This document shows, in pieces, positions 4,582-48,834 of a stretch of 49,239 nucleotides of DNA. Position numbers and translations under genes: made by a program. The notes under the pieces were generated by a model. The model was not told the DNA's origin. It saw only the letters and a list, made by a program, of their open reading frames with translations, and searched no databases. The stretch lies in the NCBI GenBank assembly GCA_000996245.1, contig LBYP01000001.1, positions 81,197 to 130,435 on the forward strand, in the 5' to 3' direction. Each line of letters starts with the position of its first letter. Position 1 is the first letter of the stretch. The DNA comes from Parcubacteria group bacterium GW2011_GWA2_40_23 (GTDB lineage: Bacteria; Patescibacteriota; Patescibacteriia; UBA11705; JABHMO01).

Positions 4582-4619
4582 GGTTTTAGATTGACTAATT
4601 TTGTCATAAAGCTATAATG

Positions 4620-4836
4620 AATATAATCAGTAATGATTGAGCTATCTACCAAATAGCTACTCTTGACGAGTCCACTTTGGCTAAATTACTAGAGAACAAT
4701 AGAACCAATTAAGTGTTCATCCTTTGCTATCTCCTTTGCAAATGCTTCGGAGATCAAGAAAGCTATGGATGGGAACTTGGGTGGAACCACCCTGCTACGG
4801 TGGGATCCCAGGACTAAATTGTTTAGTCTTTTTTTA
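4620..4836 (+). promoter_or_regulatory. T-box riboswitch leader, predicted threonine-specific
   Basis: AGTA (4629-4632) opposite AGAACCA (4701-4707) in a specifier-type internal loop closed by TAAT/ATTA and ATTG/CAAT; specifier ACC 4704-4706; T-box core AACTTGGGTGGAACCACC (UGGA 4782-4785); hairpin GACTAAA-TTG-TTTAGTC plus T7 (4812-4835); lies upstream of the dtd/thrS cluster. Confidence 0.85.
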
Positions 4837-4841
4837 TTAGT

Positions 4842-5345
4842 ATGCACAAAATTATCAAATTTGATCCACGTAAAGACATCGTCATAGGTTCTGCTTTTGG
4901 AACAATGATAGTTGGTGGCTGTCTGTTTTGGTTTTTATTTCATTTACAGATAATCGCCAGTACAAGTCTAATTGGTTTTTGGGTCTTACTTTTAGTTTTT
5001 TGTCCGGTTGTTCTTGTTTTAATCTATGTTTCCAAAAGATTTGCTCAAGGTGAAATGCGGGTTGATGAGAATTTATTACACATAAACTGGGGTGAAAAAG
5101 TTAATTGTGTGTTTGATTTAGATCAGGTTAATATTGAGAAATGGCGGGCGACTTGGTCTTTCCCAGATGGGAATAGAAAGGTTTTAGTTTATAAATTGTC
5201 TGACAGCAAAAATACTTTTACTTTTTTTGTAGAAATTAGTTGGACTAAGTATAAAAGTTTACCAGAAAGAGCCATTGAGGGCGTGTATATTCAGGTTAGA
5301 GATAAGACCATATTTCAAATTCATCCTAAGTTTCAAATAACATGA
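4842..5345 (+). CDS. Hypothetical membrane protein (two N-terminal TM segments)
   Basis: Hydrophobic segments IVGGCLFWFLFHLQ and GFWVLLLVFCPVVLVLIYV; TGA stop overlaps the dtd start region. Confidence 0.8.
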   Translation: MHKIIKFDPRKDIVIGSAFGTMIVGGCLFWFLFHLQIIASTSLIGFWVLLLVFCPVVLVLIYVSKRFAQGEMRVDENLLHINWGEKVNCVFDLDQVNIEKWRATWSFPDGNRKVLVYKLSDSKNTFTFFVEISWTKYKSLPERAIEGVYIQVRDKTIFQIHPKFQIT

Positions 5346-5806
5346 AAATTTTAATACAGCGTGTAAAATCAGCTAGCGTTTCAGTCAATAATGAAATCGT
5401 CGGAGAAATTGGACGTGGGTTATTGTTGTTTTTGGGAATAGCCAAAGAAGATACTGGAGGCGAAATTGAATATCTCGTTAAAAAGATTGTGGAACTTCGT
5501 CTTTTTGAAAATGAAGAAAATAAGTTTGACTTGTCAGTGAAAGATGTCGGCGGGGAATTGCTTCTTATTTCTCAGTTTACTTTATGCGGTTCTTGCGACA
5601 AGGGCCGTCGGCCAGATTTTTTTGATGCAGCCGAACCCTTTAGAGCGAAAAAGATTTATGATGATTTTGTGAATCGATTAGGTCAAGAGGGAATTAAAGT
5701 CGCCACAGGGAAATTTGGTGAGTATATGCAGGTTAAATTAGAAAATGATGGTCCAGTCACGTTCTTGTTGGAAAAAGGGGTAAGGGATAAAGGGAAAGGG
5801 GTATGA
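5342..5806 (+). CDS. dtd: D-aminoacyl-tRNA deacylase
   Basis: MKILIQRVKSASVSV, GLLLFLGI, LLISQFTLCG, GKFGEYMQVKLENDGPVTFLLE motifs of Dtd. Confidence 0.95.
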   Translation: MKILIQRVKSASVSVNNEIVGEIGRGLLLFLGIAKEDTGGEIEYLVKKIVELRLFENEENKFDLSVKDVGGELLLISQFTLCGSCDKGRRPDFFDAAEPFRAKKIYDDFVNRLGQEGIKVATGKFGEYMQVKLENDGPVTFLLEKGVRDKGKGV

Positions 5807-6183
5807 CAGAAGAATATAAAATAAAAACATTTAAAGATTTGGAAGCATGGAAAGAAGGTCATCAGTTAGTTTTAATGATTTACATTGTTACTAAAATGTT
5901 TCCAAAAGAAGAATCTTTTTGTCTGACGTCACAATTAAGAAGAGCTATAGTCTCTTATACTTCTAATGTTGCTGAAGGATTTAGCCGAAGATCAAGCAAA
6001 GATAAAGCTCATTTTTATACTATGGCACTTGGATCTTTAACAGAAGTTCAGAGTCAATTGGAGATAGCAAAAGATGTTGAATACATAGATGTAATGACTT
6101 TTACGAAATTAAATAATCAAGCAATTATAATTCATAAAATAACCAATGGGTTAATAAAAAGTGTTAAGATGCGTAGGAATTAG
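5803..6183 (+). CDS. Four-helix bundle protein (23S rRNA intervening-sequence/S23 family)
   Basis: FKDLEAWKEGHQLVLMIY, LTSQLRRAIVSYTSNVAEGFSRRSSKDKAHFYTMALGSLTEVQSQLEIAKD typical of the family. Confidence 0.92.
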   Translation: MTEEYKIKTFKDLEAWKEGHQLVLMIYIVTKMFPKEESFCLTSQLRRAIVSYTSNVAEGFSRRSSKDKAHFYTMALGSLTEVQSQLEIAKDVEYIDVMTFTKLNNQAIIIHKITNGLIKSVKMRRN

Positions 6184-6227: not shown

Positions 6228-8048
6228 ATGAACAAACAAGACTTAGAAAAAATGCGTCACTCTTGCGAACACGTACTAACTATGGCCATGATGCGTTTGT
6301 GGCCAGGGAGAATTAAAGCAGCCATGGGACCAGCTACTGCCGAAGGATTTTATTTCGATTTTGACTCAGACATTAGAATCTCGAGCGACAATTTTAAAAA
6401 GATCGAGGCCGAAATGGCCAAAATTATTGCCGAAGATTTGCCAATCATCAGAGATGAAATGACTATCGAAGAGGCACGTAAGTTTTTCAGCGGCAATACT
6501 TACAAAGACAATGAATATAAGCATGAATGGCTCGATTTGATTGAGGGTCGTGGCGAAAAGATTTCTGTTTATTGGATGGGCGAAAAAGGTAAAGATATGC
6601 CCGAGACTTTTGTGGATATTTGTTCTGGTCCTCATGTCGAATCGACTGGTAAAATAGGCGCCTTCAAATTACAAAAAGTTGCTGGTGCTTATTGGCATGG
6701 AGACGAAAAGAATAAAATGTTGCAACGTGTTTATGGTTTAGCATTTGAAACTCAAGCGGAAATTGATAATTATCTCACTCTTTTAGCTGAGGCCGAGAAA
6801 AGAGATCATAGAATTATTGGGAAAGATTTATTTTTGATCGAGCCAAAAGTTGGTTTGGGCTTAGTCATGTGGAAACCAAAGGGCGCTTTACTCTGGAGAG
6901 TTTTGGAAGACTTTTGGTATAAAGCTCATTTAGAAAATGGCTATGACTTGGTGCGAAGTCCGCATATTGGTTCCCGTACACTTTGGGAAACATCAGGTCA
7001 TTGCAATTTTTATAATGATAGCATGTATCCGGTTTTGGAAGTGAGTAAAACCTTGAAAGAAATGCAAGACGGCGTGACTGTTGATTGTCCCCAAGAAGAA
7101 TATTTATTGAAACCAATGAATTGTCCTTTCCACGTGGAAATTTATAAATCAGAAAAATGGTCTTACAAACAATTGCCATTGCGTTGGGCCGAATGTGGCA
7201 CTGTTTATCGTTACGAAAAATCTGGAGAATTATCTGGTTTGACACGTGTTCGCGGTTTTACCCAAGATGATGCGCATATTATTTGTACTAAGGAACAAAT
7301 GGAAAGCGAATTAGCACGCGTGGCAGAATTCGCTAAGATGATGTTTGATTCATTTGGTTTTAAACAATACAAGATTTATCTCTCACTGGGCGACCCAAAA
7401 AATCCAGGCAAATATGTTGGTGATCGTGTCAAATGGGACATGGCTGAAAAGACTTTGGAAAAAGTCGCGCAGAAACTTGGCATTGAATATGAAAAAGAAG
7501 AAGGCGAGGCTGCTTTCTACGGTCCGAAGTTGGATTATAAAGTTAAAGATGCGCTGGGTCGTGAATGGCAATGCACTACAATTCAATTTGACTTCAATTT
7601 ACCAGAACGTTTTGATATGACCTTTACCAATGCCAACGGTGAAGAAGAACAACCCTTTATGATTCACCGTGCCTTGTTTGGCTCATTTGAAAGATTTATG
7701 GGGTTACTTATAGAACATTATGCTGGAGCCTTTCCATTATGGTTATCACCAGAACAGATTCGCATTTTGCCAGTATCAGAAAAGTTTGAAGATTATGCTA
7801 ATGAAATTTTGGCAGAGTGTCGTAAAAACGGTCTACGCGCTAAAGTGATTAGCGACGGAGATTCATTGCCAAAACGTATTCGTAATTCAGAAAAAGAAAA
7901 AGTTCCATACGTTTTAGTTGTTGGAGAAAAAGAAGTCACCGATAAAACAGTTGCCGTGCGTAAACATAAAGCAGGGGATTTGGGTGCTAAACCAATGAGT
8001 GACTTCATCGCACAAGTTGTTGAAGAAGTGAGTGAAAAAAGGGTGTAA
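6228..8048 (+). CDS. thrS: Threonine--tRNA ligase
   Basis: HSCEHVLTMAM, LKPMNCPFHVEIYKS, WAECGTVYRYEKSGELSGLTRVRGFTQDDAHIIC, PFMIHRALFGSFERFMGLLIEHYAGAFPLWLSPEQ. Confidence 0.97.
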   Translation: MNKQDLEKMRHSCEHVLTMAMMRLWPGRIKAAMGPATAEGFYFDFDSDIRISSDNFKKIEAEMAKIIAEDLPIIRDEMTIEEARKFFSGNTYKDNEYKHEWLDLIEGRGEKISVYWMGEKGKDMPETFVDICSGPHVESTGKIGAFKLQKVAGAYWHGDEKNKMLQRVYGLAFETQAEIDNYLTLLAEAEKRDHRIIGKDLFLIEPKVGLGLVMWKPKGALLWRVLEDFWYKAHLENGYDLVRSPHIGSRTLWETSGHCNFYNDSMYPVLEVSKTLKEMQDGVTVDCPQEEYLLKPMNCPFHVEIYKSEKWSYKQLPLRWAECGTVYRYEKSGELSGLTRVRGFTQDDAHIICTKEQMESELARVAEFAKMMFDSFGFKQYKIYLSLGDPKNPGKYVGDRVKWDMAEKTLEKVAQKLGIEYEKEEGEAAFYGPKLDYKVKDALGREWQCTTIQFDFNLPERFDMTFTNANGEEEQPFMIHRALFGSFERFMGLLIEHYAGAFPLWLSPEQIRILPVSEKFEDYANEILAECRKNGLRAKVISDGDSLPKRIRNSEKEKVPYVLVVGEKEVTDKTVAVRKHKAGDLGAKPMSDFIAQVVEEVSEKRV

Positions 8049-8185: not shown

Positions 8186-8908
8186 TCAGCGCTTCCTCCA
8201 ATGGCCGGGCCAGAGCTTCGAGAGCAGGCCACGGCGTGGCGGGGTGGGCGTGTCGTCAGGTTTGTCGGGAGCGACGAGCGGCGCGGTCTCGTTCATGAAC
8301 CAGGCAGCGTCGTTGGTCAGCTGGTTCAGGTCTTCTGGAGGCACCTCAGTCTCTCCCTTGGCAGCCAGCTCCACGAGGTTTTCGTTCAAGAGGTTGGCAT
8401 GCATTCGGTACATCCTGAGGATCATCCAGAAGAAGACTTCCGCGTTCTCTAGGGTGTGATCGACAAAGGTGGGCTTATCTCGACGAACGGCGTCATTGAG
8501 GAAGGTGACTTCTTGATCCAGTTGCTTGGGATCGCCCCAGAACTTGGCCAGCGTCGCATCGATGTCGAACCAGGGCCAGGACTTGTTGTCCCACTCGTTG
8601 CGTTCGGCGAGGCGCAGCTTGTCGACCGTCATGCCCTTGGGGCGCAGTTCTTCCTGCACCATGGTAACGGTCGAGAGTCCTTTGAAGTGAGCGCGCAGAG
8701 GCGCAAGGGCCGCCACCAGCGCCGCCATTTCCTTTGTGGTGACGAGGTCGTTGTCCTCCAGATGCGCGAGATAGGCGTTAAGCGGGTGTATGAGCGAGGC
8801 GTCGAGCTGAGGAACATCCTCATCTCGTTGGGATTCGAGCAGCGTATCTTCCTCCGGCAACGGGCCGAAGGCATAGATCACGTTGCCTTCTCTCTTTCTG
8901 GTGTTCAA
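8186..8908 (-). CDS. GC-rich ORFan hypothetical protein, 240 aa
   Basis: Full-length ORF with GGGAGGG SD-like sequence before a TTG start, own terminator and promoter; base composition contrasts with flanks. Confidence 0.75.
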   Translation of the reverse strand: MNTRKREGNVIYAFGPLPEEDTLLESQRDEDVPQLDASLIHPLNAYLAHLEDNDLVTTKEMAALVAALAPLRAHFKGLSTVTMVQEELRPKGMTVDKLRLAERNEWDNKSWPWFDIDATLAKFWGDPKQLDQEVTFLNDAVRRDKPTFVDHTLENAEVFFWMILRMYRMHANLLNENLVELAAKGETEVPPEDLNQLTNDAAWFMNETAPLVAPDKPDDTPTPPRRGLLSKLWPGHWRKR

Positions 8909-48758: not shown

Positions 48759-48834
48759 GCCGTTGTAGCTCAGTTGGTAGAGCATCTCCATGGTAAGGAG
48801 AAGGTCTCGGGTTCGAATCCCGACAACGGCTCCA
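48759..48834 (+). tRNA. tRNA-Thr (anticodon GGT)
   Basis: GCCGTTG...CAACGGC, loop ATGGTAA, T-arm TTCGAAT, encoded TCCA 3' end. Confidence 0.96.

Follow-up and report, generated by a model that had tools for sequence, protein, structure and literature searches.

T-box riboswitches have been divided into four classes: classes I and II have a long Stem I with the IDTM, class III presents its specifier in a 5-6-nt apical loop and has an obligatory Stem II, and class IV presents it in a side bulge (PMC10482949). According to a review, T-boxes acting on transcription generally need a long Stem I with the IDTM, an elbow-binding motif, so that the tRNA is captured fast (PMC7583486), and a survey of 2008 recorded T-boxes in Firmicutes, Actinobacteria, Chloroflexi, Deinococcus and a few Proteobacteria (PMC2494555). 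A partial literature search, with TBDB outside it, found no report that links T-box riboswitches with Patescibacteria or describes the layout presented here.

We analysed a 49,239-nt stretch of DNA (the window) from a Patescibacteria genome of 1.22 Mb (37 contigs, 99.8% complete), in which an earlier note had placed a threonine T-box ahead of dtd and thrS. The sequence comparisons strongly support a threonine-specific T-box at positions 4626-4836 that governs the dtd/thrS operon through tRNA-Thr(GGU). The best explanation of this leader, to which we give a probability of roughly 0.88, is a transcription-attenuating T-box riboswitch whose predicted architecture lies outside the four described classes. 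By function and by its discriminator half it would be a kind of T-box, with a bulge that complements the 3' end of the tRNA and a specifier that matches both the anticodon and the regulated amino acid, while its decoding half appears to be undescribed.

The discriminator half is canonical and agrees with the Rfam T-box model RF00230 in Stem III, GGGUGGAACC, a UGGN bulge complementary to NCCA (UGGA in the window), the predicted antiterminator/terminator pair and an aminoacyl-tRNA synthetase downstream; the decoding domain, in contrast, has an unrelated layout. RF00230 scored 28.6 bits at the window (E 8e-5) in the whole-genome search and 21.9 bits (E 0.0048) locally, below its gathering cut-off of 93, and the 5' half of this alignment is spurious because the terminator hairpin of the upstream gene serves as Stem I. 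The earlier note had considered a T-box in a CPR genome notable, which held in part, since RF00230 matches were found in 37 of 95 relatives from the same taxonomic class, five of them above the cut-off. It had also named findings that would speak against its reading, and these came out divided: no RF00230 match in the window reached the gathering score, and the orthologous leaders do have ACC, UGGA and strong covariation, in a structure different from the proposed one.

The features of the locus are collected in the table below. Nearly all related leaders (51 of 53) have a promoter-like pair immediately ahead of P1, and as the promoter of the window ends at 4618, the transcript should begin at P1 (predicted start ~4625; the element itself starts at ~4626). 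The four-way junction formed by P1-P4 was the unprompted RNAfold minimum free energy (MFE) structure of 4626-4693 alone (-10.2 kcal/mol). The full-length MFE differs from it and speaks against the reading given here: this is a tRNA-free fold, with the CUAA side paired with the T-box region.

Features of the threonine leader, its operon and the predicted tRNA ligand (positions in the window)
Feature	Position	Strand	Details and basis
Sigma-70-type promoter	4591-4618	+	TTGACT-16-TATAAT; 11/12 matches
P1 5' strand	4626-4634	+	ATCAGTAAT; includes AGTA at 4629-4632, paired with 4687-4690
Conserved GAUUG, P1-P2 junction	4635-4639	+	At least 73/76 at each position
P2 specifier hairpin	4640-4658	+	6 bp AGCUAU/AUAGCU (4640-4645/4653-4658); 7-nt loop CUACCAA (4646-4652)
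Specifier ACC (Thr)	4648-4650	+	Complementary to anticodon GGU; ACC in 75/76 sequences
P3 hairpin	4659-4671	+	ACUC-UUGAC-GAGU; abutting-hairpin test with P4
P4 hairpin	4672-4680	+	CCA-CUU-UGG; abutting-hairpin test; in MFE
Conserved CUAA, between P4 and P1 3' strand	4681-4684	+	At least 72/76 at each position
P1 3' strand	4685-4693	+	ATTACTAGA; fold and covariation
UUAAGUG and long Stem III hairpin	4709-4773	+	Hairpin at 4716-4773; fold
Antiterminator	4776-4812	+	A1 CUUGGG/CCCAGG (4776-4781/4807-4812), 7-nt bulge UGGAACC, A2; sequence and energies
T-box sequence	4779-4791	+	GGGTGGAACCACC; inside antiterminator
UGGA	4782-4785	+	Complementary to tRNA-Thr 3' UCCA
Intrinsic terminator	4810-4836	+	AGGACUAAA-UUG-UUUAGUCUU, then U run; 9-bp stem 4810-4830
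167-aa protein	4842-5345	+	Two predicted membrane segments by eye; no family match
dtd, D-aminoacyl-tRNA deacylase	5342-5806	+	TIGR00256, E 4.5e-53
Four-helix-bundle/23S-IVP protein	5803-6183	+	TIGR02436, PF05635
thrS, threonine--tRNA ligase	6228-8048	+	TIGR00418, E 2.8e-198
tRNA-Thr(GGU), predicted ligand	48759-48834	+	Encoded 3' end UCCA

The decoding structure was examined by comparison of leaders lined up via the RF00230 matches among the 95 relatives. In many thrS leaders GATTG recurs, followed by a hairpin with the loop NNACCAA, and the window has the equivalent at 4635-4658. A first covariance model, R1, used 15 leaders in which NNN replaced the specifier, and a second model, R2, was made from 50 sequences with the window left out. 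The held-out window was scored by R2 at 50.1 bits (E = 4.3e-9), and on the other T-box loci tested R2 gave no match below E 0.2 except for known members of the group. In the masked-triplet test, the 37 parsed matches of R1 outside its seed set comprised 36 ACC and one ACA, all with thrS downstream. The seeds of R1 had been picked for having the ACC hairpin, and P1 partners by best pairing, which counts against the reading; the new matches, by contrast, were supplied by the model. UGGA, which is absent from the model, was found downstream in 53 of 53 parsed leaders; three leaders bear the variant T-box sequence GGGUGGAAAC.

Covariation of P1 and P2 across 74 distinct sequences was 0.879, compared with 0.273 ± 0.015 after shuffling, with slid controls not exceeding 0.18, in an alignment that was fitted to the model and is thus biased toward the structure; an earlier MAFFT alignment agrees (0.949 versus 0.281). 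In the 74-sequence set 86.5% of cells were paired and 368 cells had changed on both sides. P1 was paired in 79% of cells, with both-side changes in all nine pairs, and P2 in 97.5%, with both-side changes in all six. In 43 of 51 leaders the gap is taken up completely by P3 and P4 as two adjoining hairpins, as against 9.2 ± 2.7 after shuffling; the remaining eight lack two clean abutting hairpins. P2 has 6 bp in nearly all sequences, and its constant length beside the variable P3 and P4 suggests that the specifier must lie at a set distance from GAUUG/CUAA. GAUU/UAA may resemble a UAA/GAN internal loop that has one additional U.

The loop consensus over 76 sequences is Y-U/C-A-C-C-R-A: position 1 is a pyrimidine (C or U) in 74 of them, position 2 is U in 62, and the base that follows the triplet is always a purine (76 of 76). 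Judged by sequence, this pattern (Y U NNN R A) is that of a tRNA anticodon loop, and the U before and the A after the triplet could lengthen the pairing to include the tRNA residues A37 and U33. The T-box sequence exposing UGGA, the tRNA-Thr with anticodon GGU and 3' UCCA, and the downstream order of 167-aa protein, dtd, four-helix-bundle protein and thrS were all found as the earlier note had reported them, with family matches for the last three proteins. U73 is present in all three tRNA-Thr of the genome and, among the tRNAs read, otherwise only in those for Gly and Cys.

We then compared the locus with the described classes. Of the rival readings, a class III-like T-box with an ultrashort Stem I, as in Nocardia farcinica ileS (PMC10482949), survives best, although we consider it improbable. 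The shared features are an apical-loop specifier on a short hairpin and the lack of an IDTM, and apical-loop T-boxes with an S-turn and F-box do occur in the same phylum ahead of aspS, valS and ileS. However, specifier pairing in class III would be stabilised by the Stem II S-turn and the IIA/B pseudoknot, and the window has no Stem II, S-turn or pseudoknot. Between P1 and the T-box sequence there is a median of 42 nt, with Stem III already counted in, which leaves no room for Stem II, and the motifs of Stem II, sought in 51 leaders, occurred in one leader each (S-turn-like 1/51, F-box CCGUUA 1/51). Membership of class III was therefore rejected. The loop has 7 nt rather than 5-6, the amino acid is threonine and not isoleucine, the predicted mode is transcriptional, and the hairpin is enclosed in a four-way junction whose outer P1 and GAUUG/CUAA are not part of class III as described.

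Classes I, II and IV were compared in the same way. Like B. subtilis glyQS of class II, the leader is, by prediction, transcriptional, lacks a Stem II domain and is directed at a single amino acid; unlike glyQS, it has no long Stem I, IDTM or internal specifier loop. With class I (B. subtilis tyrS, thrS type) it shares the transcriptional mode and the target gene thrS, but has no long Stem I, internal specifier loop or Stem II. Its specifier is in the loop that closes a hairpin of 6 bp, not in an internal loop of a long Stem I with a distal IDTM, and its apical position also differs from the side bulge on an intermediate Stem I in class IV.

The earlier note had taken AGTA/AGAACCA, with its ACC, for a specifier-type internal loop, which implies a canonical class I leader with a long Stem I. 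In favour of this reading, the window does contain AGTA and GAACC, specifier loops typically have GAAC-like strings, and the rest of the T-box is canonical. However, AGTA is part of the covarying 5' strand of P1, and the ACC of the other side (4704-4706) lies in an unconserved linker with GAACC in only 2 of 53 leaders, as opposed to ACC in the P2 loop in 75 of 76 sequences. No IDTM hairpin was found, and the RF00230 score of 28.6 bits is far from the 93 required. We regard this reading as very improbable: threonine-specific control of dtd and thrS is strongly supported, and the comparison refuted both the place proposed for the specifier and the canonical Stem I that goes with it.

The E. coli thrS mRNA has a hairpin that mimics the anticodon arm of tRNA-Thr and is bound by the synthetase. 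A translational operator of this kind, through which ThrRS would control its own synthesis, is just as improbable, for although the anticodon-loop-like P2 loop always stands ahead of thrS, it displays the codon ACC and not the anticodon NGU and so complements tRNA-Thr instead of mimicking it, every leader has the T-box UGGA bulge, and promoter, Stem III and terminator precede the start codon.

For the T-box riboswitch with the four-way junction, switching would proceed as follows. The transcript would begin at P1 and fold into the junction, and P2 would offer ACC in its anticodon-like 7-nt loop (Y-U-ACC-A-A) for loop-to-loop pairing with the GGU anticodon of tRNA-Thr. When the tRNA is uncharged, its UCCA end would pair with the UGGA of the antiterminator bulge and stabilise A1; as long as A1 is held, the terminator stem would be incompletely formed and dtd-thrS would be transcribed. 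With charged tRNA, A1 would open and transcription would end at 4829-4836. Anatomy, covariation, conservation of ACC and UGGA, and genomic context are supported directly by the alignments and gene calls; tRNA binding, the sensing of charging and switching are inferred from the sequence.

Since the terminator starts at 4810, it takes up the final three bases of A1 (4810-4812), so the remark in the earlier note that terminator and antiterminator barely overlap was confirmed. The overlap, with both structures predicted, is 3 nt in the window and 5-15 nt in most of the cleanly parsed relatives; the automatic terminator parse places A1 wrongly in some leaders, which makes zero overlaps unreliable. 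An overlap of 3 nt was also found in L107 of the same family and, by eye, in the Falkowbacteria leader L032, and other lineages overlap more. The energies were -8.1 kcal/mol for the antiterminator alone, -10.4 for the terminator with a trimmed antiterminator and -9.8 for the full antiterminator with a 6-bp terminator. With only 3 nt shared, the predicted fold has room for the terminator alongside a trimmed antiterminator, which counts against the proposed switch. In this model a tRNA-locked A1 would leave just a 6-bp stem that is set apart from the U run. Most relatives have AAGUG and a short Stem III.

It is probable, though less so than the main reading, that these leaders make up a fifth structural class of T-boxes, specific for threonine and typical of Patescibacteria. 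In this class a mimic of the anticodon arm, held by a four-way junction, would capture tRNA-Thr by a loop-loop (kissing) interaction, and the conserved GAUUG/CUAA motif would stand in for both the contact with the tRNA elbow and the Stem II S-turn. In the main reading, too, the fixed-length P2 together with GAUUG/CUAA would take over the stabilisation provided elsewhere by the IDTM or by the Stem II S-turn. A transcriptional T-box without elbow-binding motif or Stem II would represent another way to read and grip a tRNA, with the GAUUG/CUAA motif as the place to look for the grip. The decoding domain is small (~70 nt) and therefore suited to structure determination and engineering. The element also gives a large and mostly uncultured phylum a candidate regulatory RNA, and its architecture explains why Rfam-based annotation misses such leaders.

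The distribution was determined with both models, and the layout returned ahead of thrS in much of the phylum. Among the relatives, 33 of 89 thrS upstream regions matched R2 at E < 0.003 (34 of 90 with the window). R1 gave 52 matches in 51 of 384 genomes of the taxonomic class; one weak match was rejected on inspection, with neither thrS nor a T-box, and the lowest two lie outside the examined set. In a second class of the phylum, matches were found in at least 17 of 289 genomes, and ten of the ten fetched had ACC and thrS. These genome-search counts are lower bounds because many true members escape the search, including the window, which is overlooked genome-wide although cmsearch detects it with R1. 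About 300 genomes from the phylum of an Izemoplasmatales MAG gave no true match; the lone candidate was a chance match in a coding region, with no thrS and no T-box. No match came, either, from a search of the nine genomes in which outside or more distant loci lie. A search of the order for the exact pattern GGGTGGAACCACC found the window alone, and the loose pattern GATTG..ACCAA..CTAA was dropped for its many chance matches.

As for the operon, only 3 of 53 leaders have dtd after the T-box, and in L032 the first downstream start is by eye that of dtd; dtd co-regulation is therefore a trait of the close relatives of the window. The thrS product is 61-66% identical to homologues from Falkowbacteria RIFOXYC2_FULL_36_12 and a Patescibacteria MAG. 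The 23S-IVP gene is an insertion between dtd and thrS with similar GGGGTAAGGG-type sequences on either side. Convergent with thrS lies a 240-aa ORF (8186-8908, minus strand) in a GC-rich island (55% compared with ~37% around), for which Pfam and NCBIfam searches gave no match.

Some leaders carry large insertions. In L056 (genome G001, same family) ~170 nt are added between the P2 hairpin and the T-box, both of which are intact, with dtd and thrS following. L279 and L280 (~1540-1680) have big insertions inside P3 and retain P1 and P2, suggesting that P3 accepts added domains.

Other T-boxes were also observed in Patescibacteria. Three relatives (L014, L044, L051) have canonical-looking long-Stem-I thrS T-boxes with ACC and without S-turn and F-box motifs; two decoding domains are thus combined with one discriminator in the same taxonomic class. 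T-boxes precede aspS in five loci, valS in six and ileS in one; their specifiers (GAC or AAC, GUC and AUC) lie mostly in a short hairpin loop, with one valS leader (L026) outside that check, and most have an S-turn-like GUAGA and an F-box-like CCGUUA. These leaders look like class III, yet terminators appear to follow them. Three aspS leaders (L009, L013, L048) have AAC (Asn) in place of GAC; this would be consistent with charging of tRNA-Asn by the same synthetase. Four further T-boxes (L017, L022, L025, L045) stand before trpD-like genes, look-alikes of anthranilate phosphoribosyltransferase.
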